The position numbers and the translations under genes were made by a program. Positions 34,948 to 56,470 of a stretch of DNA of 64,000 nucleotides are shown here, piece after piece. Under the pieces are notes generated by a model. The model was given only the letters and a program-made list of their open reading frames with translations, did not search any database and had not been told where the DNA came from. Position 1 is the stretch's first letter, and the number at the start of each line of letters is the position of its first letter. The stretch is from a virus. The stretch lies in IMG/VR virus record IMGVR_UViG_3300030419_007436, positions 1 to 64,000 of that record. One strand, written 5' to 3'.

Positions 34948-35188
34948 TTTTATTCTTTAGTTCTTCCTTTTGGTCTTTTAAATCATTTTTTGCATCTTCT
35001 ATAAATTCTTTGACGTGGGAGCCGACTTTTTGTTTTGAGTCTTTTTTAGCATTAAAAAACATCGAGGGCTTCCTAACCAAAGTACCTATAGTTTCACACA
35101 CATCACAATATTCTATTTTTTCAGACATTGAGTGACTTATTTTTGTGGAGGACCCACATTTGGTACATTCATAAATATAAATTGGCAT
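34940..35188 (-). CDS. FmdB-type zinc-ribbon protein
   Basis: This 82-aa product opens MPIYIYECTKCG and has a second knuckle EYCDVCETIG, giving the C-x2-C...C-x2-C zinc ribbon typical of FmdB-family (CxxC_CxxC_SSSS) small regulators. A basic, helical C-terminal tail follows (DAKNDLKDQKEELKNKNA). The gene overlaps the membrane-anchored gene by 8 bases and is one base from the 80-aa gene. FmdB-like proteins are linked to regulation, but their molecular role is unclear; DNA or RNA polymerase contact is a guess from its place beside the sigma factor. Confidence 0.85.
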   Translation of the reverse strand: MPIYIYECTKCGSSTKISHSMSEKIEYCDVCETIGTLVRKPSMFFNAKKDSKQKVGSHVKEFIEDAKNDLKDQKEELKNKNA

Positions 35189-35189
35189 T

Positions 35190-35432
35190 TTAAGTCTGCT
35201 GTGATTGTTCTACTTTAATTTCTTCGCGATCAAAATTTTGTTGCAATTTTTCCTCAAATTCATCATTAAATTTTAAAATGGGGGGATTCATAACAACTAG
35301 CCCCTCTTCTGATAATTTAAATTTAAATCCCTTTAATACAGGGACAATATCGCTCTGCTCCATCAAACTTTTTTGTAAAGCCATCATAACAGAGCCGAGG
35401 GCTTGGTCTGAAAAATTAAATTCTTTACTCAT
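35190..35432 (-). CDS. Conserved-looking small phage protein (80 aa), unknown
   Basis: The reading frame encodes DQALGSVMMALQKSLMEQSD followed by IVPVLKGFKFKL and NPPILKFN, an arrangement I associate with a small conserved protein near gp55 in marine T4-like phages (from memory, not verified). The C-terminus is polar. It overlaps the first sugar-cluster gene by 8 bases, so the transition from late-regulatory to glycan genes is seamless. No function can be assigned. Confidence 0.75.
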   Translation of the reverse strand: MSKEFNFSDQALGSVMMALQKSLMEQSDIVPVLKGFKFKLSEEGLVVMNPPILKFNDEFEEKLQQNFDREEIKVEQSQQT

Positions 35433-36318
35433 TTTTTTCTCCTTGTAGGCTAAACTTTTTACTTAGCCAATCTGAAATATAATTTTGTAATTTAACGTTA
35501 GGGCTCCACCCTAATAATTTTTGTGTTTTAGATATATCTGCTAGTGTTATCCATGCTTCTCCGGGGCGTGCGTCGATATGCTCCACGTCTTCCTTATACA
35601 TTGCTGCCAACTCATTAATAGAGTGGTTTGTACCCGTTCCTAAGTTAAAAATCTCACCTTTCCATGTGTCTTTTGACATAGCAATTAAGGCCGAACAAAT
35701 ATCTTTAACGTTGGTAAAGTCCCTTCGTTGCTCTCCAGTGCCCGTTATTGTTAAAGGCTGGTCAAACAACATTTGTTTCTCAAAGATGCCAATAACCGTG
35801 GCGTATGGGCCTGAGCGCAGGTGTCGAGGGCCATAAACATTAAAAAATCGTGCAATTGTAGTGCTCACACCATAAACTTCTGAGTAAAGTTTACATATTT
35901 CTTCTCCTTGCCACTTGGAAAAGGCATAAGGATTTAAATATACTCCACCATAAAATGAACTGGAACCGGCGTAAACTACTTTTACATTATTTTTTCTGGC
36001 GTATTCACATACCAAAGAAGTGCCTTTGGTATTAACATCTAAAGTTTCGCTCGGTCTATCAAAACTTGGTTGAATTCTGGCTAGGGCGGCCAAATGAAAT
36101 ACAACATCAATATCTTTAAGCATTTCGAAAGAGTCTGCAATCTCAAAGACGTGTCGCAAATCTTGAAAAATATATTTTGCCTTTTCATTACAGTTTTCCA
36201 TTTTTCCTGTATCTAGGTTGTCGATAACAACGACGTTATTTTCTGGATCTTCAACAAGTATATCAACCAAATTACTCCCTATAAACCCACAACCTCCTGT
36301 AACTAAAATATTTGTCAT
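35425..36318 (-). CDS. NAD-dependent sugar epimerase/dehydratase (GalE-like SDR)
   Basis: This 297-aa extended short-chain dehydrogenase has the N-terminal GGCGFIGSN dinucleotide motif, D-N-L-D-TG, the FHLAALA strand, a Ser-rich active-site strand (AGSSSFYGG) and the Y-x3-K pair (YAFSK). RFFNVYGP and RRDFTNVKD, substrate-side signatures of UDP-hexose 4-epimerases, also occur. It therefore probably interconverts or dehydrates a UDP- or GDP-activated sugar. It is the promoter-distal end of the glycan cluster as transcribed, followed by the sigma-factor group. The exact substrate cannot be read from the sequence. Confidence 0.88.
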   Translation of the reverse strand: MTNILVTGGCGFIGSNLVDILVEDPENNVVVIDNLDTGKMENCNEKAKYIFQDLRHVFEIADSFEMLKDIDVVFHLAALARIQPSFDRPSETLDVNTKGTSLVCEYARKNNVKVVYAGSSSFYGGVYLNPYAFSKWQGEEICKLYSEVYGVSTTIARFFNVYGPRHLRSGPYATVIGIFEKQMLFDQPLTITGTGEQRRDFTNVKDICSALIAMSKDTWKGEIFNLGTGTNHSINELAAMYKEDVEHIDARPGEAWITLADISKTQKLLGWSPNVKLQNYISDWLSKKFSLQGEKNE

Positions 36319-36329
36319 TTTCTATTTCC

Positions 36330-37142
36330 TTATATTCTTATCCAACTTTCTGGTATTAAATCCGCTGTTTCTTTTTTATTAGAAGACACTCTTTTTGGGC
36401 CAAACCAACACCATGGCGAAACCACCTTTTTGTCTTTGTTTTTGTTTAAGTAAGCTGCCCACCATGAAAAAGTAGAATTAGCTATTATATTGTTTTTTAT
36501 TTTTGACATCAAGTACATATCAACCACATCTAATTCTCCCTCAATATAAATTTTTTCAGTTGAGCCAAGAAAATCTGTGTTATTTTTTACCCAATTAATA
36601 TCATCACTGAACAATACTAGAGTATCATATTCCCCAATCTTATTTAACGCATTAAGATAGTAGCTTTCTTCCAATTGGCAATACAAATTTTCAAATTTTA
36701 GGTAATCCTTTCTTCTAAAGTGAAGTGCTACTGCATTCTTTTTATATAAATATTCATATTTTTTATCTATTGAATCTGTATAGAAATCTGGTAAGGAAAA
36801 CATGTCTTGTATATGTTCTTCATAATCGTGAAAGTATTTATACGATTGAAAGTATCCATATATACATAAATCCTCTTTATATTCAATCTTATTGTATATT
36901 GTACTGGTGTATGATTTTTCGGTATATCTATTTTTCACAAACTTTTTATCAAATGCGCTTTTATTTAATTTGTGAAATATACTGTTCCCATAAAAATCGT
37001 AAGGATGAAAATTTAAATCAGGAAATACTGCTTTATCGTTGTTTTCTTTTGCCAACCCTAGAGCAGTTGCTATACAAAACATCTGATTTCCCAATCCATT
37101 ATTAGAGGTAGGACAATAACCTAAGACATCACACGTAATCAA
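36330..37142 (-). CDS. Alpha-1,2-fucosyltransferase-like (GT11)
   Basis: The 270-aa product carries the GT11 motifs: GLGNQMF near residue 16, LHFRRKDY (the H-x-R-R-x-D donor-site motif) in the middle and NSTFSWWAAYL near the C-terminus. It would transfer L-fucose from GDP-fucose, in line with gmd and fcl next door. The start is a TTG at 37142 preceded by a GGGGG stretch; the next in-frame ATG falls inside GLGNQMF and would destroy the motif. The length fits GT11 enzymes. It abuts fcl with one base between. Confidence 0.92.
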   Translation of the reverse strand: MITCDVLGYCPTSNNGLGNQMFCIATALGLAKENNDKAVFPDLNFHPYDFYGNSIFHKLNKSAFDKKFVKNRYTEKSYTSTIYNKIEYKEDLCIYGYFQSYKYFHDYEEHIQDMFSLPDFYTDSIDKKYEYLYKKNAVALHFRRKDYLKFENLYCQLEESYYLNALNKIGEYDTLVLFSDDINWVKNNTDFLGSTEKIYIEGELDVVDMYLMSKIKNNIIANSTFSWWAAYLNKNKDKKVVSPWCWFGPKRVSSNKKETADLIPESWIRI

Positions 37143-37143
37143 A

Positions 37144-38067
37144 TTATATCCCCCTTATATTGGGATAGTTTTTTTCAAACCACCCACACACATTGGACAG
37201 ACTTTCATAAAAGTCTGTGTATTTTTCCTGCTTCCACCCAAGAGAAATTAACTTTGAATTATCGGACGGTTTTCTATATTGTCCTTTTGGCATATCTGTT
37301 TGCCAAACTATTTCTCCATTGTAATCCAATATTTCTGCAATCATGTTGGCTACATTTTTTATAGAATACTCTTTCGTGTTTCCGACATTGATTGGAGTTT
37401 CATCGTTATATTTATCAAGTAAAAATAAAATAATTTTTGATAAATCTTTTGAATATGTGAATTCTCTTAGAGGAGATCCATCTCCCCATAAATATACAGA
37501 ATTATTACTCTTTTTTGCTTCATATATTTTTCTAATTATAGCTGGTAGAACGTGACTATCTTCTAAATCAAAATTATCATTTTCACCAAATAGATTGTTT
37601 GGTACGATAGTTACAAAATTACAATCATATTGTCTTCTATATGCTCTAGATTGAATGTCCGCCATTCTCTTAACGTGTGCATACGCAAAATTTGACTGAT
37701 GTGGTTCTCCATTATGAATGTCTTTTTCTACAAGAGGATAGCTTACAACATCAGGATAAACACATGTACTTAAAACTGATAAAACCTTTTTTACATTATA
37801 TTCTTTCGCGTAATGCAAAACATTTGTGCTAATCATTGTATTTTCATAATAAAAGTCGGCTAACTTGTCCATATTAGCTTTTATCCCTCCGACCTTAGCA
37901 GCTAAATGAATAACACAATCTGGTTTATGATCTTTGTACATTTGCTCACACTGCTCACTTTTAATCAAGTTGTAGTCTTGTGAAGAAATATAAACCGCAC
38001 TCTCCAAATCTTGTTTAAGTGCGGTACCGATCATTCCAGAACCTCCTGTAACTAAAATTTTACTCAT
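37144..38067 (-). CDS. fcl: GDP-L-fucose synthase
   Basis: This 307-aa SDR has GGSGMIGTAL at the N-terminus, AAKVGGIKAN, LSTCVYPDV and the Y-x3-K pair YAHVK, followed by NLFGENDNFD. These are the signature segments of GDP-4-keto-6-deoxymannose 3,5-epimerase/4-reductase (WcaG/Fcl). It makes GDP-L-fucose from the product of Gmd. It overlaps gmd as ATGA and lies beside the GT11 fucosyltransferase, making a complete two-step pathway plus transferase. GDP-mannose itself must come from the host, since no manB/manC is in the window. Confidence 0.95.
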   Translation of the reverse strand: MSKILVTGGSGMIGTALKQDLESAVYISSQDYNLIKSEQCEQMYKDHKPDCVIHLAAKVGGIKANMDKLADFYYENTMISTNVLHYAKEYNVKKVLSVLSTCVYPDVVSYPLVEKDIHNGEPHQSNFAYAHVKRMADIQSRAYRRQYDCNFVTIVPNNLFGENDNFDLEDSHVLPAIIRKIYEAKKSNNSVYLWGDGSPLREFTYSKDLSKIILFLLDKYNDETPINVGNTKEYSIKNVANMIAEILDYNGEIVWQTDMPKGQYRKPSDNSKLISLGWKQEKYTDFYESLSNVCGWFEKNYPNIRGI

Positions 38068-39032
38068 TCTATTGTTGTCATCCAGTGATTAATCATATCG
38101 TCCATCAACGTTTCAAATGTATATTCGGGGGCCCACCCAAGAACCTCTCTTGCTTTTGTTGAATCTCCCTTAAGATATTTCAACTCTTCGGGTCTCATAT
38201 ATTTTGGATTTTGTACAACATAATCCTTATAGTCTAGGCCCAGCTGTCCGAAAACATATTCACATAGATTTCTAACTGAGTGTGTTTCGCCGGTTGCAAC
38301 TATAAATTCATCAGGAGTGTGATGGTTAATAATCATGTGCATGGCCCTTACATAATCCTTTGAATGTCCCCAGTCTCGAAAAGAGTCTAAATTACCAAGC
38401 TCTAGTTTATCTCTATAACCCTTCTTAATTTCTACTGCGGTTTTAACGACCTTATTTGTGACAAAGTTAGAGCCGCGGCGAGGGGATTCGTGATTAAATA
38501 AAATCCCATTACAGGCATGTAAATTATAGGCATTTCGGTAGTGTTTAACTAGATTGTATGCTAAAAGTTTAGCGCAGCCGTAAGGACTCACAGGGTTCAT
38601 GGGAGTTGTCAGTCTTTGGCTTCCATCTTCATCAACAGAATTTCCAAACATTTCAGAAGAACTAGCCTGATAGAATTTTGCTTTTGGTACAATCGATTTG
38701 TATACTTCTAAGAGATTGAGTACTCCCATCGCGTTTGTTTGAATAGTATAAGACGGTACATCAAAACTAATTCTTACATGACTCATCGCAGCCAAATTAT
38801 ATATCTCATCTGGCTTTACCTCATTTACAACGCGAGTTAAGGAGGGGACATCCATCATATCAGCATAAAAAGTGTTAATTTTATCATTAACGTGTTTAAG
38901 TCTGCTGTCTTGATTTTCAGCAACAGAACTTCTTCTAATAAGTCCATGAACTTCATATCCCTTGTTCAAAAGGTATTCAGATAAGTAACTCCCGTCTTGT
39001 CCTGAAACACCTGTAATTAACGCTCTTTTCAT
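38064..39032 (-). CDS. gmd: GDP-mannose 4,6-dehydratase
   Basis: The 322-aa protein opens MKRALITGVSGQDGSYLSEY and contains GLIRRSS, YNLAAMSHV, ASSSEMFG, PVSPYGCAK and FNHESPRRG. All of these are diagnostic of Gmd. It converts GDP-D-mannose to GDP-4-keto-6-deoxymannose, the first step to GDP-fucose. Its start overlaps the stop of the mini aminotransferase, and its stop overlaps the fcl start. The length is slightly short of bacterial Gmd (about 345-370 aa), with the active-site part intact. Confidence 0.96.
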   Translation of the reverse strand: MKRALITGVSGQDGSYLSEYLLNKGYEVHGLIRRSSVAENQDSRLKHVNDKINTFYADMMDVPSLTRVVNEVKPDEIYNLAAMSHVRISFDVPSYTIQTNAMGVLNLLEVYKSIVPKAKFYQASSSEMFGNSVDEDGSQRLTTPMNPVSPYGCAKLLAYNLVKHYRNAYNLHACNGILFNHESPRRGSNFVTNKVVKTAVEIKKGYRDKLELGNLDSFRDWGHSKDYVRAMHMIINHHTPDEFIVATGETHSVRNLCEYVFGQLGLDYKDYVVQNPKYMRPEELKYLKGDSTKAREVLGWAPEYTFETLMDDMINHWMTTIE

Positions 39033-39619
39033 TTAAAAATCCTCATATTTGTTAAATCTGGCCAATCTGAAATTGTCCATTGTTTTGGTTTGTTGTTGAT
39101 CGCCTCTGGCAATCTTTCTAGCCCCAAGGCTGCAGTTTCTGGTGTCATATAATAATGGTATCCCATTGAAGATATATTTTGCTCTCTCCATGGAATATTT
39201 GGCAACCTTCCGTCATATGACATTTTTTTTAATTCTTCTTGTGCTGTTTTATTGTCTGTTAAAATCATTCCGCCGCGGCCAAGACTTAAATGCTTCCTGT
39301 ATTGAAAACTCAAACACATAAACGTCTTAGGAATATAGCTGTCTTTTTTCCATAGGACCGCGGCATCTATAATATTTGTATTTCCTAAATAATAATAATC
39401 ATTCCAATTCTCCTCTCTCCATTCAAAATCAATATCTATTTTTCTTGCCAAAAAAGGAACAGATATGTATGTATGTTTTGGTATTGTTATTTTTGTTGGC
39501 TTTTCATATCTTAAACAAAGCTCCAATGCATGTGTACAACAATCAACTGCAATTCCGTGGGGCGCGCCGAAAAACTTAGCCACTTGTTGTTCAAATTTTT
39601 CTACAAGATCAAAACTCAT
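39029..39619 (-). CDS. Truncated DegT/DnrJ/EryC1-type aminotransferase
   Basis: This 196-aa protein matches the large domain of PLP-dependent sugar aminotransferases: VDCCTHALELCL, IPKHTYISVPFLA, NIIDAA, SFQYRKHLSLGRGG with the putative Schiff-base Lys109, and YYMTPETAALGLERL. Family members are usually about 370 aa; the C-terminal small domain is missing and the chain ends soon after the last motif. It may be a reduced enzyme, an inactive substrate-binding protein, or a partner subunit. It is coupled to gmd by a 4-base overlap, so a 4-amino-sugar made from the Gmd ketosugar is conceivable, but that is inference. Confidence 0.82.
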   Translation of the reverse strand: MSFDLVEKFEQQVAKFFGAPHGIAVDCCTHALELCLRYEKPTKITIPKHTYISVPFLARKIDIDFEWREENWNDYYYLGNTNIIDAAVLWKKDSYIPKTFMCLSFQYRKHLSLGRGGMILTDNKTAQEELKKMSYDGRLPNIPWREQNISSMGYHYYMTPETAALGLERLPEAINNKPKQWTISDWPDLTNMRIFK

Positions 39620-40155
39620 TTTGTTGCCTCAACGTTTAAACTTATAAGAGTACCACTTTCTTTATCCATGTGAGGCTTGTATGCTTGAGAATGATCATCA
39701 AAAGATGCATGCTCTGTTTCTTTCCAATCATAGGTCTCAACATTAAGAAAGCCGCACTGCTCTAACAAATCAGATAAACTATTAAAATCATAAGTTGTTT
39801 TATGGTATATGGTTTTATCACCCATTTCCATTTTTCCATATAAAGGCCCCAAAAATTCTTCCAAACTATAAGCTTTATAACAATAGAGATTGACCATCGA
39901 TTCAAAGTCTGGTACTGCAACTCTCAATATTCCATTCGGCTTGAGTACACGATACCACTCTTTTAAGACAAGCTCCGCTTCTTTTCTGTCAAAATATTCT
40001 AAAACATGAGACGCATATATTAAATCAACAGTATTATTATCGAAATTTAGTCTCGTGATATCATAGTCATTTAAATGATCATAATCGCCGCCATCGATGT
40101 GCACCCAATCTTTTCCAAAATTTCTCCAACCGCAACCTAAATGTAATTTTATCAT
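39616..40155 (-). CDS. Class I SAM-dependent methyltransferase
   Basis: The 179-aa product has the SAM-binding GCGWRNFG near the N-terminus (LHLGCG), an acidic second motif (VHIDGGDYD), then DLIYASHVLEYF and a post-motif strand WYRVLKPNGILRVAVPD. This is the layout of small class I methyltransferases in sugar and lipopolysaccharide clusters. The substrate could be a sugar hydroxyl or the glycan terminus. It overlaps both neighbours by 4 bases. The C-terminal region (FDDHSQAYKPHM) is His-rich and may contribute to the acceptor site. Confidence 0.9.
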   Translation of the reverse strand: MIKLHLGCGWRNFGKDWVHIDGGDYDHLNDYDITRLNFDNNTVDLIYASHVLEYFDRKEAELVLKEWYRVLKPNGILRVAVPDFESMVNLYCYKAYSLEEFLGPLYGKMEMGDKTIYHKTTYDFNSLSDLLEQCGFLNVETYDWKETEHASFDDHSQAYKPHMDKESGTLISLNVEATK

Positions 40156-40559
40156 ATAAATTCTTTATCCTGTTCAATGCCTAAGTACGGCCCAGTTTTG
40201 TATTCATATACCAAAGTGTCATCTTCCAATATTTCATACGTGTGGCCACCATATAAGGTAATACTACAATCTCCAGCATCTAAAATTTCTTCAGAAACAA
40301 CTTTGTCATCCAAATCATATAAAATAGCCTTTACTTTTCCGCTTATTACCGCCCACGATTCTTGGGCTATTGTAGTTGTTTTTTCACAAAAAACATGTTT
40401 GTGGGGCTTAAATGTCTTTCCCTTCGGTAAGCGCATCGCGGCTAACTGAATAAATTCTTTATCCTCAACAACATTAAGCCTTTCAGTTTGAACGCTGTCT
40501 TTTTTTAAAATTATATGTAATAACGTCTCTGGTTCAACTTTAGAATAAATTTTTTTCAT
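40152..40559 (-). CDS. Small cupin-fold protein
   Basis: This 135-aa protein contains FKPHKHVFCEKT, AQESWAVISGKVKAILYD and GGHTYEILEDDTLVYEYKTG, which correspond to the two cupin strand motifs, with His residues that could bind metal. Such cupins (WbuC-like) occur in O-antigen clusters and as sugar epimerase or isomerase relatives, but the exact reaction cannot be read. No clear Shine-Dalgarno precedes the ATG; instead TATAAT lies 7 bases upstream of it (40572-40567), so a leaderless transcript is possible. Confidence 0.82.
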   Translation of the reverse strand: MKKIYSKVEPETLLHIILKKDSVQTERLNVVEDKEFIQLAAMRLPKGKTFKPHKHVFCEKTTTIAQESWAVISGKVKAILYDLDDKVVSEEILDAGDCSITLYGGHTYEILEDDTLVYEYKTGPYLGIEQDKEFI

Positions 40560-40583
40560 GATAATGATTATACTGTAATACTG

Positions 40584-40952
40584 TCAATAATTTAAAGAAT
40601 TATCTATAAAATCTAGCACGTAGTCCCAAGAGCTTTTTTTACCTCTTTCAAATCTAATTGCTTTGTCATCAATATAACATTTAGCAGGCAATTTTGTATT
40701 TGATATCTCGTCAAAATAGTGAAGCATGTCTTGTTCTACAAGCCATTTTTTAATTGGTTCGGGGGGTCGACAAGAAACAATAACAAGCCGATATCCATTG
40801 CTCTTTAGCTTTTCTAATGCCTCTCTCGTGCCCTCTGTTGGCTTATCATAGACATTTTGTTGTCCCTTAAACCCCTTAGAATATCGATGGATAACACCAT
40901 CAAAATCTATAGCAATTGTTTTGTCTTTAACTTTTACGTCAATTTCTTTCAT
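40584..40952 (-). CDS. HAD-like phosphatase-fold protein (122 aa)
   Basis: The N-terminal AIDFDGVIHRYS supplies the DxD nucleophile motif of HAD enzymes; VIVSCRPP is the second (Ser) motif and AKCYIDDKA the third acidic motif. The minimal size fits compact HAD hydrolases. Near a sugar-nucleotide cluster it could dephosphorylate a sugar phosphate or clean up a phosphorylated precursor. It overlaps the APS kinase gene by 4 bases. An alternative is a polynucleotide-kinase-phosphatase-like domain, but no kinase P-loop is present in this protein. Confidence 0.82.
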   Translation of the reverse strand: MKEIDVKVKDKTIAIDFDGVIHRYSKGFKGQQNVYDKPTEGTREALEKLKSNGYRLVIVSCRPPEPIKKWLVEQDMLHYFDEISNTKLPAKCYIDDKAIRFERGKKSSWDYVLDFIDNSLNY

Positions 40953-41680
40953 GATATACTCTCAATTATAAAATTTTCTAATGTTTTCAAAGAGTGTTTT
41001 ATATCCTCTTTGTCTGTTTCAATAGCAAGATCTTCGATTTCTGGTTCATCAAACGGGTCAGATATACCAGTAAAGTTGTATACTTTATCTGGATCTCCAT
41101 CTGGAAGGAGCGCCCTTTTATATAAGCCTTTCGTGTCTCTTCTCTTTAATTCATCCAGTCCGCACTTAATGTAAACCAGTTTTGAATCAGGTATAGTTTT
41201 TTTAATGTGGTTTCGAGTGGAGTTGTAAGGGTTGATTGCAGACATTATACATACAACATTGTTTCTTCCTAAAACCTTGCCAACAAAAGAGAGTCTCCTT
41301 ATGTTTTCTTCTCGATCTCCCTTTGAAAAACCCAAGTCTCTACATAAGTTTTCCCTGTATTCGTCTCCATCGATGACTTCTACTTTAATGCCGCGGCTTT
41401 GAAGCCTTTTTTTAACTGCCATGGCTAAAGTTGTTTTTCCGGCTCCAGACATTCCCGTCAGTTGAATATAGAGTCCCTTGGTTTTTCCCCACTTTATTTT
41501 GTTCCACACTCTTTCATGAAGCATGAATAAACAGAGCATCAAAAGGTGATACACAATTGCAACAAAGCTGGTTTGTTTAATAGAGCCTGTAATAATAAAA
41601 GCAACTAAAGATAGGATAAAAAATCCTAAAACTTTCCAGCTAACTGCTTTTGTAAAACTTCTTTTTTTTGAATCAATCAT
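40949..41680 (-). CDS. cysC: Membrane-anchored adenylylsulfate (APS) kinase, DUF2061 fusion
   Basis: The 243-aa protein has two parts. Residues 1-62 carry the DUF2061 signature (RSFTKAVSWKVLGF, VAFIITGS, MLHERVWNKIKWG) with two hydrophobic segments. From residue 70 follows APS kinase: GMSGAGKT (P-loop 76-83), VIDGDEYRENLCRDLGFSK, REENIRRL and GLYKRA. It phosphorylates APS to PAPS, the donor used by the sulfotransferase at 47768-48493. An APS kinase held at the membrane is unusual and suggests local PAPS supply. No ATP sulfurylase is in the window, so APS must come from the host. It sits between the HAD protein and the 246-aa gene. Confidence 0.93.
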   Translation of the reverse strand: MIDSKKRSFTKAVSWKVLGFFILSLVAFIITGSIKQTSFVAIVYHLLMLCLFMLHERVWNKIKWGKTKGLYIQLTGMSGAGKTTLAMAVKKRLQSRGIKVEVIDGDEYRENLCRDLGFSKGDREENIRRLSFVGKVLGRNNVVCIMSAINPYNSTRNHIKKTIPDSKLVYIKCGLDELKRRDTKGLYKRALLPDGDPDKVYNFTGISDPFDEPEIEDLAIETDKEDIKHSLKTLENFIIESIS

Positions 41681-41683
41681 AAT

Positions 41684-42424
41684 TTAAAACCTATGTGTCG
41701 GATAATCCTTGTATTTTGTTAATTTATCAATATGTGGGTATCGATCTTCTATATATTCACAATCTTCATAGAGCGCTCGGACCAGTTCATGATCAATGCC
41801 CTCAAAAAAAGTATATAATATTGGAATGTTCATTTTCCTCGTGTGATAATAAGATTCCAAGTGTGCATTAAAGATTTTGTATTCTTCCCAATAATCATAT
41901 AAAGTTGAAAACTTATCCATGTTTTCAGAACTAGAAAAAAACCAATAATCTAAAAGCATGTTACTAGTTTTTGTTTTAATCGGATCGTGGTCATCGCATG
42001 GGGCGTAAAAGAAACTATTATCATAATTAGAAAAATTTAATTCCCTAAGAAACGCCAAATCGAACCTTGTTAACAAGACCCAATCATATTTAAAATTATT
42101 TTCTTCTTCATGTTGTTTTTTTAATTCCATGACCTTTTTTGTAGAATACCACCTACTTTTAAGAAACTCTTTTCTTCTGTTCTCCTGATTAAAAGCTAGC
42201 TGCTTTTCAAATATGCTTTTTTTTGGTTCATAATCTCTTATTATTTCACTCTCGTAATTTTCACTCCAAGAATGTATGAACACATCTACGTTATTAACAC
42301 CCATTACATGTTTTTTAAAGTGTTGAAGGGCAATCCTATAATCCACATCGCCCTTCCATTCATAGTCTTTTTTATTTTTATACACGTTTCCCACAACGCC
42401 GCATATACAAAGAGCAATTCTCAT
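41684..42424 (-). CDS. Glycan-cluster protein of unknown function (246 aa), glycosyltransferase-like
   Basis: The protein opens MRIALCICGVVGN and carries FIHSWSENYE, a long charged helix, YDWVLLTRFDLAFLREL with a short acidic FDL strand, and a DDHDPIKTK loop. The sequence looks like the uncharacterised GT-A-like proteins found in O-antigen loci, where R-x-D acts as the metal-binding motif; I could not place it in a named family. It ends 3 bases before the APS kinase gene and overlaps the next gene's end by 4 bases. Glycosyltransferase activity is inference. Confidence 0.7.
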   Translation of the reverse strand: MRIALCICGVVGNVYKNKKDYEWKGDVDYRIALQHFKKHVMGVNNVDVFIHSWSENYESEIIRDYEPKKSIFEKQLAFNQENRRKEFLKSRWYSTKKVMELKKQHEEENNFKYDWVLLTRFDLAFLRELNFSNYDNSFFYAPCDDHDPIKTKTSNMLLDYWFFSSSENMDKFSTLYDYWEEYKIFNAHLESYYHTRKMNIPILYTFFEGIDHELVRALYEDCEYIEDRYPHIDKLTKYKDYPTHRF

Positions 42425-45292: not shown

Positions 45293-45294
45293 AT

Positions 45295-48493: not shown

Positions 48494-49247
48494 CTTCTCT
48501 CCCTTCGAGATATCCTCTTTGTTTAATATATGTTGAACATTTAACAGCTAATCTTGCCCTGTCGTCCGCTTCTGCAGTGCCAGAGCGTGGTTTTGAAGGA
48601 TTTCCATAAAATGTATGCATATACAACGGTTCGTCTATAAAACCAACCGATGAATAGCCACCATCCCTTTTCCAGAGTCTGTATAATATAGGCAATGTCA
48701 TTGCGTGATCAGTTGCGATTTTAAACCACTCACCATTCCAATCTAAAAAATTATTCACAGAAATTTCTTTGAGCGCTTTGGCCTTAAAGGTAGACATGTG
48801 ACTTGTTATCCAGGCGCCAGTATATGGATTCCAATTATCATTGGGAATGGGACTGCTGCAGCCAAGTTGCCCATGTGTTAACAAATATCTACTATAAACA
48901 TATTCTAGTTTGTTATTCTCTTCGTATGTTTTCTTTATGGTTTCTAGAGCGGTGTTTCTTCCTAACCAATCATCGCTATCAACAATACAAACAATATCTT
49001 CAGGATCTCTGTCTATGGCGCTGTCGTATATGTTTTTAAGCCTGTATTTTCTTTCTTCGTTTATTTTTATATCAATGCCCTCAACACCTTTATATTTTTC
49101 TAGGTATGAAGCGGTATCATCATCGCTGATGTCATCTATAACGATATGAGATTTGGGTCTAACTGTTTGACTACGTACACTATCAATACAATTAACAACA
49201 AATTTATTCGCATTTCTGCCAGTAGAAATTACATATATATTACTCAT
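48486..49247 (-). CDS. GT2-family glycosyltransferase
   Basis: The 253-aa product has a GT-A fold opening MSNIYVISTGRNANKF, with HIVIDDISDDDTASYLE (nucleotide strand) and VCIVDSDDWLG (D-x-D metal site), followed by TGAWITSHMSTFKAKALKEI. No membrane segments are present, so it would work on a soluble or membrane-peripheral acceptor. The gene overlaps its neighbours by 8 bases on both sides. The donor sugar cannot be read from the sequence. Confidence 0.92.
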   Translation of the reverse strand: MSNIYVISTGRNANKFVVNCIDSVRSQTVRPKSHIVIDDISDDDTASYLEKYKGVEGIDIKINEERKYRLKNIYDSAIDRDPEDIVCIVDSDDWLGRNTALETIKKTYEENNKLEYVYSRYLLTHGQLGCSSPIPNDNWNPYTGAWITSHMSTFKAKALKEISVNNFLDWNGEWFKIATDHAMTLPILYRLWKRDGGYSSVGFIDEPLYMHTFYGNPSKPRSGTAEADDRARLAVKCSTYIKQRGYLEGREDA

Positions 49248-50043
49248 TTATATATTCCTTAATAATATTCTCCCAGCCAGATATTTTCATTTTTGAAAGA
49301 TCATAAAGTTTGGAGGACATTTCTTCATATTTTTTACTTAGATAATTATAGTTTATGTCTTCCCAATTTTTAACAAATAAAATAGGAAGATCTTTAAATT
49401 CATTCATTGCGATGCTTTCTTTGACTATGGGAATGGTTCTCAAATATAAAGCTTCCCAAGTTCTATGGCAGTCCACGCCATTTCCTCGTGGAGAAAATAC
49501 GAACTTATGAGAGGCTATATCTCTATAATATTCTTTCCAAGATATATTCTTTTTATTAGTAACCCAACTCTCATTTTGAAACAAATCTAAAACGCGCTGT
49601 CTTTCTACGGGGTAAGTTTTGGGATTGATATTTAAGTATACAAAATTTTTGTGTTGTAGTTTCTCTTTGGCTACACCGTTTATGTACACCGCCTTCTCCA
49701 ATGAATTTTGGGGTTGTGATGAATATTTTCCAAGATGACTTGTCATATTAATTCTAAGGTTCATATTTTCTAAACCAATTGGAATTCCAATTAGCCTACT
49801 ATCTTTATAATCCTTGTTTTGAGCAAACCATTTTGTGACATTTTTAGGTATATAAGAGAATCGGTTTTCCTCAATATGATAATCACTATTGTGTGTGACA
49901 AAAACAGACTGTTCTGTGTTGGTATACTCTGTTAAAAAATCTGTTTTACAAAAAGTTATATTTAAATTTTCACATATATCTATAAATTTATTGCCTGTAA
50001 TATATTCTTTTATATCAATATTGTGTTCTAAAAAATTCTCCAT
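49240..50043 (-). CDS. Exostosin-like glycosyltransferase (GT47-type)
   Basis: The C-terminal half holds IASHKFVFSPRGNGVDCHRT, then WEALYLRTIPIVKESIAMNE and LPILFVKNW. This is the exostosin/GT47-type donor-site signature (F-S-P-R-G..C-H-R-T-W-E). The N-terminal 140 residues form the acceptor part. It lies in the overlapping operon with GT2 upstream in transcription of the sulfotransferase. Whether it adds a hexuronic or neutral sugar is not readable from sequence. Confidence 0.82.
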   Translation of the reverse strand: MENFLEHNIDIKEYITGNKFIDICENLNITFCKTDFLTEYTNTEQSVFVTHNSDYHIEENRFSYIPKNVTKWFAQNKDYKDSRLIGIPIGLENMNLRINMTSHLGKYSSQPQNSLEKAVYINGVAKEKLQHKNFVYLNINPKTYPVERQRVLDLFQNESWVTNKKNISWKEYYRDIASHKFVFSPRGNGVDCHRTWEALYLRTIPIVKESIAMNEFKDLPILFVKNWEDINYNYLSKKYEEMSSKLYDLSKMKISGWENIIKEYINE

Positions 50044-50880
50044 TTACACTAGCTCTACAAATTTCTGTTTATATCCTTCAAAATAGGCGCGCTCTAATTC
50101 TGAAAAAACCAGAGACATAATTATTTTAGTGTCCGCCCATATTTCATCTTTATATGGATCTCTATGTAGGTGTACATCAATTACACTGCTGCTTATACAT
50201 TGCATAAATGTCTCTTTCCAAGCACCTCTATCAATTCTTCCGTTTCTCATTCCATATTGGTTTCCGCCGCGCTCAAACATTTGACAATTGTTTGGATAAT
50301 ATTTACTTTCGAAAACTCTTTTAGTTAATATATATTCATCTAAATTCCAACCTTGATCCCAGGTCGATTCCTTAGATAGCATTTTAGAAAGACAATCAGA
50401 CAGGTTTTCTCTCAATGATTTATCACTTATCCCAATCACCTCTTTCCAGATCTTTGCTTTCATTCCTATGTTTCCAATTTTTAAACGTGTATAGTTTGTT
50501 TCATCCGGATCAAATATGTGAATGTCTTTTGAAAAATCTTGCTGATTGAACCATTTGTCTGATATAACAAATTTATCCATATCGTCTGTTATAAGATAAT
50601 CATCATCATTAAATAAAGGATCTGCAGCTGCAAATAACCTTGAGATTTGGGCAACATTACAAGTTCTATATCCCTCAATATGTTTAAAATGATTTATGTG
50701 GGCGCCCACTTTTTCGGCGCTAGTTAAAATCAAATTTAAAATATCGGGAGATATATCGTTGTTATCAACCAAAACAACATAAGGGTGATAGCCCAGCTTT
50801 TTCCAAAAAGCACATGTAATTGGAACAAAAAACAAATAATCTGTATTTGAGTCTACGGATAAGACTGAATATTTTTTCAT
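50044..50880 (-). CDS. GT-A-like glycosyltransferase (278 aa)
   Basis: I place the start at the ATG at 50880 (MKKYSVLSVDSNTDY) because it overlaps the previous stop as ATGA and follows GAGAGG; a TTG start 18 bases earlier is less likely. A GT-A-like DDDYLITDDMDKFVIS motif lies near residue 100, preceded by FFVPITCAFWKKLGY and followed by IGMKAKIW and a WDQGWNLDEY segment. This has the look of a nucleotide-sugar transferase with D-x-D, but it does not match a family I can name. It abuts the GT47-like gene. Confidence 0.8.
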   Translation of the reverse strand: MKKYSVLSVDSNTDYLFFVPITCAFWKKLGYHPYVVLVDNNDISPDILNLILTSAEKVGAHINHFKHIEGYRTCNVAQISRLFAAADPLFNDDDYLITDDMDKFVISDKWFNQQDFSKDIHIFDPDETNYTRLKIGNIGMKAKIWKEVIGISDKSLRENLSDCLSKMLSKESTWDQGWNLDEYILTKRVFESKYYPNNCQMFERGGNQYGMRNGRIDRGAWKETFMQCISSSVIDVHLHRDPYKDEIWADTKIIMSLVFSELERAYFEGYKQKFVELV

Positions 50881-52418
50881 TTTAACCTCTCTACGCAAAG
50901 TCTTCTTTTTTTGGAATTTTTACACTCGCCAGTTTTTAAATTAAACTTCCAATTATGAAGTGGACAAACCAAGTTATCATTCTCATCAACAAACCCTGTT
51001 GTTTCTAGGTCTGCGAGCATATGAGGACAATATTTCTGAACCTTATATTTATCACCTTTGTGTTCTAAAATAAAATTTTCTTCTGTTGATACTCTTTGGT
51101 TATAAAGACTTTCAGATATTCTTAATCTTGTGTTGTCCATATTTCTTAGTAGAGCAAACAAAATATCATCATATTCATCTGGTCTTCTATATGCTTTAAA
51201 CTTCAAGCTTAAAAAATAATAGTCAAAATCAATAAATTTATTTCCCAATATATGTGCCAATAGGGCACCATCAAAAGAGAAGTGATATCGACAATCTTCA
51301 TTTTCATATTTTTTAAAACACCTTTCCTCATCTTCAGAAAAATTTACAACCCATTTATTTCCATCTATTTCAAATAAAATAGGATAATTTAATTTATTTT
51401 TATATATTTTAGAATTTTTTACAACTTGAATCGTTCTATATCTTAGTAAATCTTCAGCACCGTAGCCAGATTTGATTTCTACGGTTGCAACTCCCTTTTT
51501 CAACTCAAGTCTTTTTTCTTTAACATATTTGTTTATATATTCATCAACATTTTGATATATTTTGTGGCTTTCTTCCGTGTCACATAAAAATTCAATCTGT
51601 TTCTTATCTAATTTAATTATATCATTTGGTATAACCAAATGAGCGTTATGGCCACTATCTTTTATATATTGTACACCTTCATCCATTAAAGGAAAAGGAT
51701 TATGTTTCTTTGCCCTTTCATGATTCCATCTAGATTCTTCTACCCCTGAAAATATTGGGGGCCCTGCGCACGGTATAATATTTTTTGCTTTTGTCCACTT
51801 GGCATAGTTTACCGACCTTTTTAGTACGCCTTCTCTTTTTTTCTCGCATACAGAATTCATCTTTTCTTCTTCATAATTATAAACACATGGCCACCATAGC
51901 GCACTGGAACACTGAAGCATAAGTACATCAATTTGTTTCATTTCTTTAAACTTTTCTGGTTTTAGATGGCAGTCATTTAAGTTCAATATCGTGCTGTGTT
52001 CGTCTTCAACGTATATACAAGAATCCTTGTCTAAATAATCTTCTTCTTTGAATATTTTAATTTTTAAGTTTTTCTTAAAATATGTGTCATCTTCCTCCAT
52101 TTCAAGAATATTTGTAAATCCCATACTTTTTAGTTCGTATTTTAAAGAAAAGTCTTTAAATTTGGGAATACAGACTTGCACATCTTTGTTTATCTTTTGT
52201 AGTGTCCATGGGTCATAATGATCTGCGTGAGAGTGAGAAATATATAGAACGTCTACATCTTTAGTTATTTCTTTAATATCTACATTATCTATCCTGGGAA
52301 ACTGAAGCCAACTAGAAAAAAATGTACCGTCTGGGTTTAACCAGGGATCACATAAAATTTTTATACCATTGTTTTTAATAGACCACCCAGCGTGTCCTAA
52401 GTATTGTATTTCAAACAT
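50877..52418 (-). CDS. Metallo-beta-lactamase-fold and Rieske fusion oxidoreductase (CMAH-like parts)
   Basis: Residues 1 to about 270 form a metallo-beta-lactamase (UlaG-like) domain: LGHAGWSIKNNG and the metal motif H62-S-H64-A-D66-H67, then IIPCAGPPIFSG. Residues about 455-510 form a Rieske domain with C464-x-H466 and C485-x2-H488. The two domains occur together in CMP-N-acetylneuraminate hydroxylase (CMAH), where to my knowledge the Rieske part is N-terminal; here the order is reversed. A hydroxylating oxidoreductase acting on an activated sugar is therefore a reasonable inference, not a proven one. It overlaps the neighbouring glycosyltransferase by 8 bases. No reductase partner is in the window. 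Confidence 0.88.
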   Translation of the reverse strand: MFEIQYLGHAGWSIKNNGIKILCDPWLNPDGTFFSSWLQFPRIDNVDIKEITKDVDVLYISHSHADHYDPWTLQKINKDVQVCIPKFKDFSLKYELKSMGFTNILEMEEDDTYFKKNLKIKIFKEEDYLDKDSCIYVEDEHSTILNLNDCHLKPEKFKEMKQIDVLMLQCSSALWWPCVYNYEEEKMNSVCEKKREGVLKRSVNYAKWTKAKNIIPCAGPPIFSGVEESRWNHERAKKHNPFPLMDEGVQYIKDSGHNAHLVIPNDIIKLDKKQIEFLCDTEESHKIYQNVDEYINKYVKEKRLELKKGVATVEIKSGYGAEDLLRYRTIQVVKNSKIYKNKLNYPILFEIDGNKWVVNFSEDEERCFKKYENEDCRYHFSFDGALLAHILGNKFIDFDYYFLSLKFKAYRRPDEYDDILFALLRNMDNTRLRISESLYNQRVSTEENFILEHKGDKYKVQKYCPHMLADLETTGFVDENDNLVCPLHNWKFNLKTGECKNSKKRRLCVERLK

Positions 52419-53232
52419 CTAATTTTTGCCTTACAGTATCGCTAACAAATCTACAATCTCCAAATTTTGACATTCTAGAAAATAAAACAATTTTATTTGG
52501 ATCTAAAGTATAAGATGGATCAAAAGATACTAATGTCTGCTGATCTCCGTATTTATTAAGTATATCACTTTCATAGTCCTGTTGTAAATTATATTTTTCT
52601 ATCAGTAACGATAAAATAGACTGATCCTGACGATGTTCTATACATAGTGATTCTGGTCCGTCAGGTTTTTTAACAGTTGTATCGGGGCCTATTATTTCTA
52701 AATTTAATGAACAATTATACATTTCATTAATAAATTGAGAGTTTGTATGATTTGATTCATAACATTGATACCCGGCCCAATATTGGGGGGCGTCGCGATA
52801 TCTTTCACTATCACACCCCATTTGTGTAAAACAAGCTTCAGTGGTCCAATATTTATTTTTTAATTGTTCTGGATGATATTTTAAAAACAAGCAGCCACTC
52901 TTTTTAACGTCTTTTTTAAGCTCAACTGTCATATTAACAAATGCATTTGTAGCATCAGAGTAAATGAAGTCATGGCCAAATTTCGAAGCGCCATGGATTG
53001 CGGCGACTTTATAGAAAAACATTCTAGGAGAGTGAGCATAATCGCAGACTCTTTCCACTTCTTTTAATATTATTTGAGATCCATATCTGTTTTGTAAAAA
53101 ATCTAAATAAACCTCATCTAAATCAAAATAATAGAATAAAATTTCTTTGTTAAAAGAGTTGTGTTTGTAGCTTTCAATTAAATTAATGGAAGAAAGAAAA
53201 AACTTATTATTTGTTACAGTAGAGAGTATCAT
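52411..53232 (-). CDS. Glycosyltransferase-like protein (273 aa)
   Basis: The protein has a short GT-A-like layout (ILSTVTNNKFFLSSINLIES at the start, DFIYSDATNAFV as a candidate D-x-D loop, HRQDQSILSLLIEKY near the end). This is the arrangement seen in uncharacterised transferases of O-antigen and capsule loci; the H-R-Q-D-Q-S-I-L motif is typical of them. It overlaps both the MBL-Rieske gene (8 bases) and the GT4-GT2 gene (4 bases). No firm family call is possible. Confidence 0.78.
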   Translation of the reverse strand: MILSTVTNNKFFLSSINLIESYKHNSFNKEILFYYFDLDEVYLDFLQNRYGSQIILKEVERVCDYAHSPRMFFYKVAAIHGASKFGHDFIYSDATNAFVNMTVELKKDVKKSGCLFLKYHPEQLKNKYWTTEACFTQMGCDSERYRDAPQYWAGYQCYESNHTNSQFINEMYNCSLNLEIIGPDTTVKKPDGPESLCIEHRQDQSILSLLIEKYNLQQDYESDILNKYGDQQTLVSFDPSYTLDPNKIVLFSRMSKFGDCRFVSDTVRQKLDV

Positions 53233-55202
53233 GCATCTTTATATTTCTCGTATACTTCTTCTTCTTCTTTTCTTTTCCAAGAGAAATTTTCAGGATTTGT
53301 TGAAATTCCTGTAGGATTAAAATAATATAATCCAAGAGGATTAGAATTAATTTTCTTATACGTAGACCCTTTTGAAGCCGCTCTCAACCACATTTCCCAA
53401 TCCCCTGCAGATTTGTATTTTTGATCAAACAATCCAGCCTCTTTATGTAAAGATTTTCTCCACATTGGAGAAGAGTGAGGCATGTTAATCATCTTGAGAT
53501 TATCAAAAGAGAATTCTGGAAAATTATACCTTCTTTCATTTGAGGAATTTTGTTCCCATGTTTCATTTGGTTTGTCAGTTATTAACATATCCGCATAAAC
53601 TAAATCAATGTCTGAATTTTTATATAGTTCTTTTGCATGTGCCTCCAAAGACCAAGGAGCCTTTCTATCATCTAAGTTTGCATTTGTTAGATATTCTCCA
53701 CTTGACATTTCAACACCCATATTCCAAACACTATAAATGCCCGGATCAGAATCAAGTTTCTTATAAACTATATTATCAGGATATTTTTCTAAATACTCGT
53801 TGATTACTTCTTCTTCATTGTGAGGAGAGTTAGCATTAATCAAAATTAATTCACATTTATCCTTAAAGATAGTTTGTCTAGTAATGTCTTCTAGGAATGA
53901 CTTAATAAATTCATCCCCTTTATAAACAGATGTTATGATAGAGACTTTTGGTAGTTCATTAGAAGACACGGAAACCAATTTTTCTCCGGCAATCAATTCA
54001 GCCATTTTTGCATACTGATCTTCTTCTTTAAAATTTTCAACTACAAATTTTTTAAGATCTTTTGCCTGCTTTTTAAACCGACCATATTCCTTATACATTT
54101 CTCTAAGGCGCATTTTATATGAACCTTGTTGTGGATAACACCACATAGAATTTTTTTCTAATACCCCTTCCCAAACGCTACTTTCTGGAATCGGTTTAAT
54201 ATCATAATCTATTCGAGAGAAATGCGGGCGCATTTTTACTTTGCCGCTCTTTTTCTCTTTTTTTGGAGCAAAAAGAAAATCAACATGACCACTCCATTCT
54301 GGCGCCATCACAGGAAGGCCGGAATAAGCAGCTTCAAATATCGGCAGACCGAAACCTTCGCCATGAGCTAAAGAAACAAGTGCTTTAATTTGTGGATGTT
54401 TATATAGAGAGTGCATTTGTTGATCTGACATATCGCCATGAAGAAGATATATCTTACACTTTCTATTTTCATACTTGGATATAAACTTTGTTAATTTATC
54501 TACTGCATCATATCTATCACTTATTGAGTTTCCAGTTGCAAATGTTTTAACCACCAAGCCAACATCAGGGTTGTCAATAAATTCTTCCATAAACCAACTA
54601 ATCGTGTTTTCCAAATTTTTTCTTGGCCCCCATTGGGCAACAGTAAGAAAATTAAATTTAGAACTCAACTCTAAATCCAAATCAACTTCTTCATATTCCT
54701 TAACTGGGTAATGTACAACAGATATTTCTTTGTTGCACGAAAGTGTCATTTTTTGACCAGTTTCTTTATCAACCCCTTGATATGAAGACGCTTGATATAC
54801 ATTTTTTGAATGGCTCGATACAGTAATTACCCTATCCATCATATTCGCTTTTTCTAACCAAACTGGGGCAACTCTATTCGTTTCAATACCAGCCGTAATT
54901 CCAACATTAACCGGCGCCATTTTTTGCCATTCATTGGGAATTGTTACTTGTATGCTCATATCAAACCGAACATCTCCTTTAGTTTCAGTTTGATAATTAG
55001 CTGTTTTTTTGACCAAGGTGTCAAACCATTGTCGTTCTTCATCATCTGCAGATATCCATCCACATTGTCCCCAATTAACTGGTAAAACATAAAGGTCAAA
55101 GATGTCTTCATGTTTTCTCAGTGATCGGAGTACAAAACGTCCATGTTCACCATATCCAGAGCGCGTCAAAAAAGGTGCTCTTACTATTACTTTCTTTTTC
55201 AC
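53229..55202 (-). CDS. Two-domain glycosyltransferase, GT4 plus GT2 (657 aa)
   Basis: I start at GTG 55202 because it overlaps the previous stop as GTGA with AAGGAG 5 bases upstream; a TTG start at 55223 is possible. The first ~400 residues are GT-B (GT4): WGPRKNLENTI, and SLAHGEGFGLPIFEAAYSG with the acidic E-G-F-G-L-P-x-x-E donor motif. The last ~240 residues are GT-A (GT2): PKVSIITSVYKGDEFIKSFL, TNANLDDRKAPW, AGDWEMWLRAASKG. One chain therefore could add two sugars in sequence. It overlaps both neighbours by 4 bases. Confidence 0.92.
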   Translation of the reverse strand: MKKKVIVRAPFLTRSGYGEHGRFVLRSLRKHEDIFDLYVLPVNWGQCGWISADDEERQWFDTLVKKTANYQTETKGDVRFDMSIQVTIPNEWQKMAPVNVGITAGIETNRVAPVWLEKANMMDRVITVSSHSKNVYQASSYQGVDKETGQKMTLSCNKEISVVHYPVKEYEEVDLDLELSSKFNFLTVAQWGPRKNLENTISWFMEEFIDNPDVGLVVKTFATGNSISDRYDAVDKLTKFISKYENRKCKIYLLHGDMSDQQMHSLYKHPQIKALVSLAHGEGFGLPIFEAAYSGLPVMAPEWSGHVDFLFAPKKEKKSGKVKMRPHFSRIDYDIKPIPESSVWEGVLEKNSMWCYPQQGSYKMRLREMYKEYGRFKKQAKDLKKFVVENFKEEDQYAKMAELIAGEKLVSVSSNELPKVSIITSVYKGDEFIKSFLEDITRQTIFKDKCELILINANSPHNEEEVINEYLEKYPDNIVYKKLDSDPGIYSVWNMGVEMSSGEYLTNANLDDRKAPWSLEAHAKELYKNSDIDLVYADMLITDKPNETWEQNSSNERRYNFPEFSFDNLKMINMPHSSPMWRKSLHKEAGLFDQKYKSAGDWEMWLRAASKGSTYKKINSNPLGLYYFNPTGISTNPENFSWKRKEEEEVYEKYKDA

Positions 55203-56470
55203 GATATCTCCTTGATTTCCCAATTCTTATAGCCCTTTCTTTCTCCCCAAGAGCCCATTTCTTCGTAAACCATTGTAAATATTTCATCCCACTGTTTAGA
55301 AAAATCATTAAAATTATAATTTTCTATTACATGCTGGCGCCCTGCGGCGCCAAGCGCTCTTCGATCTTCTTCTTTCATATTATACATTTTTTCGAGCGCG
55401 GCGACGACGACATCTTCAGATAGTCGATCTTCATATATCCATGGAATATCTTGAGAACCAATAATCGCCTTAGATGTTGGTTCTAAACCAATGCCAAACC
55501 AATTTTCCCCATCCGTCACTTGTTCTTGTAAACCACCCGTCATATTTACAATGATTGGTGTTTCACAAGCTAAAGATTCAAGAGTTGCTAAACCAAATCC
55601 TTCAGCATCTGATATGTTGATAGTACAGTCTGCAATATTATACATAACAGCTAATGTTTCTGGGTCAACTTTCTGGCGAGAGAACAGTACTTCTCCGTTT
55701 GTTAAACCAAGCTCAGAAACTATTAATTCCAAATCTTGACCATGTTGATCTTTTGTATCTGTGTGCATTATTAAAACAGCATTTTCTTTACCAACTTTTT
55801 CCAAAAACTTTGCGTACCAATAAATTAAAGTACCACTTTGTTTTCTACGAGCGTTTCTATTGTTCCAAAAAAAGACGAACTTATTGGGGTCATAGTTATC
55901 TCCAAACGACCTTGATGCAAACTCTTTTACACGCTCTTCATCATATCTTTTATAAGAGTCAGTATCAACAGCGTGTGGTAAGTATACAGACTTTACATTT
56001 GGAGAGACTTTTTTAACAATATCATCAGTAACTTTTGATATTGTCACAATTAAATCGTTTGATTCATACCACTTTTTGTTATATGTTGGAAGAGGATAAT
56101 TGTCCCACACATGATAATATACCATCGGAACAAGTGGTCTAATTTCATTTTCTATTCCCCAAAGCCATGGCCAAAACCTAGGATCAGTCATAAACCATAA
56201 AATGTCGGGCCTTTCCTGTCGCACAATAGATCTTATCATATCTGGATTTCCATAACCTTCCACGGGAAGAGTAATCCAATCATCTTTCCATTCTTCTGTT
56301 TTTATCGGATTAAAATCAGGGTGGTGCATTGCGCCGCCTAAACTAAAAAATTTATATTTTCCAGTTTTAAGCATATTCTCTATAATATATCTTGTTTGGT
56401 TGCCAACGCCGGATGGCGCGAATGGCATATCACTAATAGTTAATATTTTAATTTTATTCGTGTCAGACAA
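55199..56470 (-). CDS. GT4-family glycosyltransferase (423 aa)
   Basis: This GT-B enzyme opens KIKILTISDMPFAPSGVGNQ and has VYLPHAVDTD, FFWNNRNARRKQSG and the GT4 donor motif SDAEGFGLATLESLACETP. The start is TTG at 56470 after GAGGG; the nearest ATG (residue 15) would remove the N-terminal strand. It is the first gene of the glycan cluster in transcription order, 9 bases after the nuclease gene. The donor sugar cannot be deduced. Confidence 0.93.
   Translation of the reverse strand: MSDTNKIKILTISDMPFAPSGVGNQTRYIIENMLKTGKYKFFSLGGAMHHPDFNPIKTEEWKDDWITLPVEGYGNPDMIRSIVRQERPDILWFMTDPRFWPWLWGIENEIRPLVPMVYYHVWDNYPLPTYNKKWYESNDLIVTISKVTDDIVKKVSPNVKSVYLPHAVDTDSYKRYDEERVKEFASRSFGDNYDPNKFVFFWNNRNARRKQSGTLIYWYAKFLEKVGKENAVLIMHTDTKDQHGQDLELIVSELGLTNGEVLFSRQKVDPETLAVMYNIADCTINISDAEGFGLATLESLACETPIIVNMTGGLQEQVTDGENWFGIGLEPTSKAIIGSQDIPWIYEDRLSEDVVVAALEKMYNMKEEDRRALGAAGRQHVIENYNFNDFSKQWDEIFTMVYEEMGSWGERKGYKNWEIKEIS

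Follow-up and report, generated by a model that had tools for sequence, protein, structure and literature searches.

The window, the 64,000-nucleotide stretch analysed here, covers bases 1-64000 of a virus record that is 190,629 bases long. Its gene block at positions 35425-56470 represents one allele of a glycan island that is hypervariable and sits at the same genomic site across a large clade of T4-like phages. As an earlier note on this DNA had described, the block comprises 23 open reading frames (ORFs) on a single strand, here the minus strand, on which all the genes detailed below also lie. The interpretation given in that note is partly supported. The enzyme families that it named were mostly recovered with Pfam above the curated cut-offs, the GT10 family being weak, and the tight packing that it pointed out is confirmed, with overlaps of 4-8 bp at 13 of the 22 junctions; at the others, neighbouring genes either overlap by 14-25 bp or are separated by 0-24 bp. 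The set of sugar chemistries also stands, while its presumed one-off status does not, as the block is one of many alternative payloads found at the same hypervariable locus and phages of a distant lineage carry a similar set. The phage itself, a large marine one, is T4-like, with a terminase 45% identical to that of Flavobacterium phage immuto and 43% identical to that of Microcystis phage Mel-JY01; near-identical phage records were sought and none was found.

The site is defined by anchor genes that keep their order on both sides of the island. On one side, the order is PhoH, the gene at 57556, nuclease, GT4 glycosyltransferase and second glycosyltransferase. The outer anchor is a PIN-PhoH protein (58980-60290; Pfam PhoH, 1.5e-52), 58-85% conserved beside the island in relatives, and it is followed by a PD-(D/E)XK nuclease (56480-57253; PDDEXK_1, 4.7e-17), whose profile matches the gene immediately upstream of or near the glycosyltransferase pair in immuto (8.8e-37) and Mel-JY01 (2.4e-34). 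The pair consists of a GT4 glycosyltransferase (55199-56470; Glycos_transf_1, 7.2e-13), hereafter GT 1, and of a second enzyme with a GT4 domain, hereafter GT 2 (53229-55223), which in this phage carries a fused C-terminal GT2-family domain (1.4e-13) with a weak GtrB-like PHROG match; its Glycos_transf_1 match (4e-6) clears the cut-off only just. On the other side, the order is the boundary gene, zinc ribbon, the gene at 34636, the sigma-like gene and the gene at 33650. The small boundary gene (35190-35432) has counterparts of 45-74% identity that border the islands on their far side, the zinc-ribbon protein (34940-35188) matches Zn_ribbon_8 slightly under the cut-off (1.1e-7), and the putative late sigma factor (33940-34632; 55-81% in relatives, which also exist in immuto and Mel-JY01) is called gp55-like solely from the appearance of its sequence. 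The earlier note had placed the block between a sigma-factor group and a nuclease/PhoH group; the sigma gene has no convincing Pfam match.

Related viral contigs were retrieved via GT 1 or via the sigma-like gene. Both flanks were present at 32 loci, which correspond to 25 distinct islands once duplicates are removed. These islands hold 403 ORFs, 402 of them on one strand, that fall into 224 families at 35% identity, including 153 singletons. GT 2 is the only family found in all 25 islands, and the mean overlap in content between two payloads amounts to about 9% of the smaller one. The distance from GT 1 to the boundary gene ranges from 1.27 kb in the nearly empty island L149, where it holds one ORF, to 19.8 kb in the window. 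The gmd family occurs in 7 islands and the carbamoyltransferase family in 5, and 12 of 34 records contain NeuB, which belongs to the nonulosonic acid pathway, so that fucose is one option among several. The 35 epimerase matches, distributed over 10 records, are without exception located within approximately 25 kb of GT 1 on its payload side, and they fall between GT 1 and the sigma-like gene in all seven records in which both were located; no epimerase was found anywhere in the near-empty record or in one other record. No tail-fibre family was detected by Pfam in the payload of the window or among the 25 commonest Pfam families in each batch of payload representatives. That 25 distinct related islands share these anchors and enclose an interval of glycan type makes a chance explanation unlikely. 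The earlier note would have been contradicted by the same block in a host O-antigen locus lacking phage relatives; as far as the analysis reached, this is not the situation, because the anchors and many payload genes do have phage relatives. A hint of a Maf-type flagellin glycosyltransferase (PF01973, matched in 6 of 34 records, of which 5 also have NeuB) was set aside, a single match lying above the cut-off in a protein that has no PDB relative.

In the allele of the window, the genes assigned to fucose are the best defined. GDP-mannose 4,6-dehydratase (gmd, 38064-39032; GDP_Man_Dehyd, 8.8e-116; 85% identical in island L021), GDP-fucose synthase (fcl, 37144-38067; Epimerase, 3.7e-52; 63% in L062) and a GT11 fucosyltransferase (36330-37142; 2.1e-23), in which an HFRRKD motif can be read, all exceed the curated cut-offs. 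The claimed GT10 fucosyltransferase (45295-46164; 1.3e-5) is retained as a weak match, at 25.4 bits against a cut-off of 23.9. Gmd and Fcl would make GDP-fucose, from which the GT11 and GT10 enzymes would transfer fucose. APS kinase (40949-41680; 2.3e-44), fused to an N-terminal DUF2061 membrane domain (4.1e-10) with two membrane segments, is predicted to make PAPS. Sulfation would be carried out by the sulfotransferase (47768-48493; Sulfotransfer_1, 4.6e-7), which displays the PAPS-loop-like motifs RSGGT and RDFRD, carbamoyl addition by a NodU/CmcH-type carbamoyltransferase (46151-47767; Carbam_trans_C, 3.9e-61, and N, 2.9e-18; relatives of 48-65% in viral contigs) and methyl addition by a SAM methyltransferase (39616-40155; Methyltransf_11, 1.1e-10). 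These assignments agree with those made previously, and so do the two NAD-dependent sugar epimerases, A (35425-36318; 8.1e-48; 81% in L021) and B (42421-43431; Epimerase, 1e-51).

The further glycosyltransferases that had been announced were likewise recovered, namely a GT2-family enzyme (48486-49247; 3.9e-10; 76% in L021) and an RXYLT1/GT47-like enzyme (49240-50043; RXYLT1_C, 1.6e-8; 69% in L021), in addition to the domains of GT 1 and GT 2 described above. Three other putative glycosyltransferases have no convincing Pfam family: 41684-42424 (DUF7796, 5e-4, below cut-off), 50044-50898 (63% in L021) and 52411-53232 (44% in L021). The payload also encodes an APH-fold kinase (44480-45292; 3.4e-5), a probable nucleotidyltransferase-HAD fusion (43428-44483; NTP_transf_3 and HAD families, both below cut-off), a HAD phosphatase (40584-40952; HAD_2, 1.3e-6), a short DegT-family aminotransferase of 196 aa (39029-39619; 9e-18) whose family is present in 7 other islands, and a WbuC-like protein (40152-40559) that matches no Pfam family and was recognised as cupin-like by eye only.

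The two anchor glycosyltransferases form a core that extends to distant phages. In immuto, GT 1 and GT 2 are adjacent and in the same order (302.9 and 267.0 bits), with the nuclease upstream and with aminotransferases, an epimerase, a methyltransferase and more glycosyltransferases after the pair. In Mel-JY01, the nuclease is again upstream and GT 1 is split into two ORFs, followed by GT 2 at 248.3 bits. Rhodothermus phage RM378 has GT 1 at 165.4 bits, and the next gene scores just 27.8 bits to GT 2, a weak match. All 26 large related records that were searched contain GT 1, and 14 of these records had been chosen through the sigma-like gene alone. The EX7E glutamates of GT 1, E290 and E298, are invariant in 29 sequences, and its AF2 model (pLDDT 86.7) is a confident soluble GT-B fold. 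With Foldseek, the best PDB match of this model is chlorovirus NY-2A B736L (3oy2). Similar scores are reached by MshA and other GT4 enzymes, so that the fold gives no indication of the acceptor.

Comparison of closely related loci provides a view of how payloads change. Contigs L027 and L028 come from different metagenomes, yet 8,832 bp of their sequence match at 99.85% identity; identity then falls to chance level within about 40 bp, at the last codons or 3′ end of GT 2, beyond which each continues into different ORFs; this breakpoint is read from short metagenomic contigs (10-15 kb) in which chimeric assembly is possible. A second pair, L049 and L074, shows 98% identity along 4.4 kb and 87% across the two glycosyltransferases, and the two sequences are unrelated thereafter. 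Since similarity between L027 and L028 is lost abruptly at the end of GT 2, these alignments indicate that the payload may be replaced as a cassette by recombination, at least on the glycosyltransferase side. On the boundary side, near-identical flanks with unlike payloads come down to one weak case, L144 and L152, at 89%. A crowding of contig ends on the payload side of GT 1 (12 versus 4 within 1 kb, p ~0.05-0.08) was rejected as a signal, the count being biased by the way in which loci were selected.

The distant lineage that carries a similar set of chemistries is represented by island L005. Its anchors are only remotely related to those of the window, with 25% identity for the nuclease, 31% for GT 1 and 29% for GT 2. 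Its payload is closer, with 67% for gmd, 65% for the carbamoyltransferase, 66% for the methyltransferase, 60% for the DegT protein, 57% for the cupin-like protein and 47% for the GT10 enzyme, and it includes a sulfotransferase of another family (Sulfotransfer_2) as well as an RmlD-type reductase. The combination of distant anchors and close payload implies either that the payload moved between lineages or that it was kept while the anchors diverged faster, and transfer appears to be the simpler reading.

The explanation towards which we lean, on slightly better than even terms, is that this hypervariable, exchangeable island serves the glycosylation of a phage-encoded protein. In this model, the two conserved cytosolic GT4-fold enzymes would initiate a glycan on an acceptor that is conserved and encoded by the phage, most probably a virion protein. 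The variable payload, located between GT 2 and the boundary gene, would extend this glycan with outer sugars. The type of glycan would change among related phages by payload replacement, as in the switching of bacterial O-antigens and capsules. We infer that the acceptor is a virion protein, in which order the sugars are added and what each enzyme acts on; the selective reason would presumably lie in the evasion of receptors, defences, predators or competing phages. A broader formulation, put forward more tentatively and on slightly worse than even terms, would make the island a phage serotype locus, in which an ancient two-enzyme core of a deep T4-like lineage glycosylates the virion while exchangeable payloads switch the outer glycan by recombination between fucosylated-sulfated-carbamoylated, nonulosonic-acid-type and almost absent forms.

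The earlier note had proposed glycosylation of the virion or conversion of the host surface, and these are the right pair of alternatives. The main rival, which we hold to be unlikely, is that the island acts on the envelope of the infected host and remodels it: its soluble enzymes would modify or replace lipid-linked O-antigen or capsule units handled by the host Wzx, Wzy and ligase, and would so exclude competing phages or keep progeny off debris. Indeed, the sugar chemistries of the block are all at home in bacterial surface polysaccharides, and any bacterial O-antigen locus consists mostly of genes for soluble enzymes, so that initiation, flippase and polymerase could come from the host, which counts against the virion reading. 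Host-envelope remodelling is also the role given to the glycosyltransferases of the pelagimyophage hypervariable island (PMC7029224). However, none of the 403 payload ORFs of the 25 islands encodes a protein with three or more membrane segments, in a scan that detects Wzx (9 segments) and Wzy (6 segments) in E. coli K-12 and that is blind to single-pass or peripheral enzymes. One or more hydrophobic segments were found in 11 of these ORFs, one of which, the DUF2061-APS kinase, has two. No multi-pass initiating enzyme, flippase, polymerase, ligase or transporter candidate, including ABC exporters, is evident by this measure, nor is a membrane GtrA/GtrC or membrane O-acetylase of the kind used by temperate phages in seroconversion (gtrABC, wzy-alpha). 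The islands thus combine the exchangeable interior and conserved flanks of an O-antigen or capsule locus, and the variable sugar-nucleotide and glycosyltransferase set of T4-like phage glycan/LPS islands, with glycosyltransferases that are apparently cytosolic, including the GT-B-fold GT 1, and that would work without lipid-carrier assembly. This absence of membrane assembly enzymes tilts the balance towards cytosolic protein glycosylation. Moreover, phages of Bacteroidota and phages of Cyanobacteria have both retained the glycosyltransferase pair, which persists even next to a near-empty payload, which would be odd for a host-specific acceptor and fits better with a phage-encoded one.

Two other readings have far less in their favour. 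Glycosylation of DNA by phage glycosyltransferases is established, and the enzymes could in principle act on hypermodified phage DNA, such as the hydroxymethylcytosine of T4-like phages; DNA hypermodification with diverse glycans has been reported (Pyle 2024, as cited in PMC12619734). This is very improbable here, as no dCMP/dUMP hydroxymethylase of the thymidylate synthase fold (PF00303) was found in the 190.6 kb record, which may be incomplete, and the lack of this enzyme argues against glycosylation of the T4 type. We know of no DNA glycan that involves sulfation, carbamoylation or payloads of about 20 genes. Equally remote is the view that the payload is stuffer DNA or passing host O-antigen cargo without function in the phage. 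LPS-like clusters have long been seen in phages without known purpose, and the 2010 comparison of cyanophages still raised stuffer DNA as a possibility (PMC3037559). The payload also has a GC content of 33%, versus 38% for the whole record, but the local flanks are similar at 33-37%. This reading is already disfavoured by purifying selection on payload genes between phages (pN/pS median 0.26 and maximum 0.43 over 42 pairs, with synonymous sites near saturation), by the tight same-strand packing of the islands and by the fact that linked chemistries recur in a distant lineage.

Several known systems resemble the glycan island in part. The LPS clusters of cyanophages P-SSM2, S-SSM7 and S-SM2 are also surface-sugar gene clusters of T4-like phages, one of which, in P-SSM2, lies near phoH; they are found in larger genomes and given as of unknown function, and the consulted parts of that comparison report no two-glycosyltransferase anchor, near-empty allele or cassette switching (PMC3037559). 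The NodU-type carbamoyltransferases of cyanophages are approximately 30-42% identical to the 46151 protein. The host-recognition cluster of pelagimyophages is likewise hypervariable, marine, T4-like and equipped with glycosyltransferases, yet it lies in the structural region between VrlC and gp14, includes tail fibres and is judged to diverge gradually (PMC7029224), whereas the payloads described here look glycan-only, sit between the nuclease/glycosyltransferase pair and the sigma-like genes, and show at least one abrupt switch. Megavirinae glycosylation clusters comprise 6-33 virus genes for nucleotide-sugar synthesis and glycosyl transfer, are clade-specific and make bacterial-like rare sugars, but they belong to eukaryotic viruses whose virion fibril sugars have been measured, while the present island is known from genes alone (PMC10117803). 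Bacterial O-antigen and capsule loci (e.g., E. coli rfb, L185) likewise have conserved flanks around an interior that can be exchanged and that comprises sugar-nucleotide, transferase and decoration genes, and O-antigen loci differ in carrying membrane Wzx/Wzy. Virion glycosylation in mycobacteriophages relies on few glycosyltransferases and is not known to involve an exchangeable island of about 20 genes. It nevertheless corresponds to the function proposed here, in that the phage encodes the glycosylation of its virion proteins (Freeman 2023, cited in PMC12619734). In a limited literature search, no description of a fixed two-glycosyltransferase anchor, a near-empty allele and abrupt cassette exchange was found.

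The fixed site, the conserved pair, the near-empty allele and the clean switch offer handles on the purpose of such clusters, the near-empty allele being a natural negative control. Cultured carriers in which virion glycans can be studied are immuto, which grows on Flavobacterium sp. LMO8, RM378 and Mel-JY01; a literature search returned nothing on immuto virion glycans, on Mel-JY01 or on RM378. If virions do bear switchable glycans, phages would own a surface-antigen system, with a bearing on adsorption, grazing and marine competition.

The MBL-Rieske fusion of the earlier note (50877-52418) is confirmed by Pfam matches to Lactamase_B_3, SCP2_Rv3818 and Rieske, the domain content of the Rv3818-like SCP2 entry of Pfam, and the motifs HSHADH and CPH..CPLH, corresponding to the HxHxDH and Rieske CxH..CxxH signatures sought for a CMAH/CmlA-like oxygenase, can be read in it. 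A pattern scan of viral contigs for this protein gave zero matches, and its single-sequence AlphaFold model was discarded (pLDDT 36). Tblastn revealed a partial relative in L071, and full-length relatives exist in Actinomycetospora. The protein is a probable iron-dependent oxygenase, with a weak PDB match to CmlA-type diiron monooxygenases, and it probably hydroxylates a sugar or an acyl group.

The exchangeable payload of the glycan island in the window includes a gene at 40949-41680 whose product joins a DUF2061 membrane domain to an APS kinase; the islands of three related viral contigs (L066, L076 and L087) contain relatives (58-60%) of this kinase. It also includes a gene for a DegT-family protein at 39029-39619 that, with 196 aa, has about half the usual length and belongs to a family common to eight islands. 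The payloads of two further loci (L139 and L151, in the related viral records G017 and G025) carry a PF01973-like gene flanked by two NeuB-domain genes, a group that possibly represents a nonulosonic acid set including a transferase of its own.

Outside the island, PhoH is adjoined by a conserved gene (window 57556-58257), which the metallopeptidase families M90 and ATLF match only weakly, below the cut-off. Very large ORFs (1338, 3355, 2405 and 1396 aa) adjoin the baseplate wedge genes within window 2270-33646, and the three of them that were scanned gave no PHROG match.

Beyond the window, the whole virus record encodes proteins that by eye appear GroEL-like (111443-113017), IMP dehydrogenase/GMP reductase-like (117738-118778) and small heat-shock-like (181136-181570); among cultured relatives, GroEL is annotated in Flavobacterium phage immuto and GuaB in Microcystis phage Mel-JY01. 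At least 12 proteins encoded at 71900-94533, 136800-137636 and 184238-184669 of the same record share a repeated peptide at or near the N-terminus, in the form MKLLFENWRxYLxE or MKLTKSxLKQxIxEEL. By analogy with the prohead-targeting tags of T4 internal proteins, to which it was likened, this peptide could serve as such a tag.
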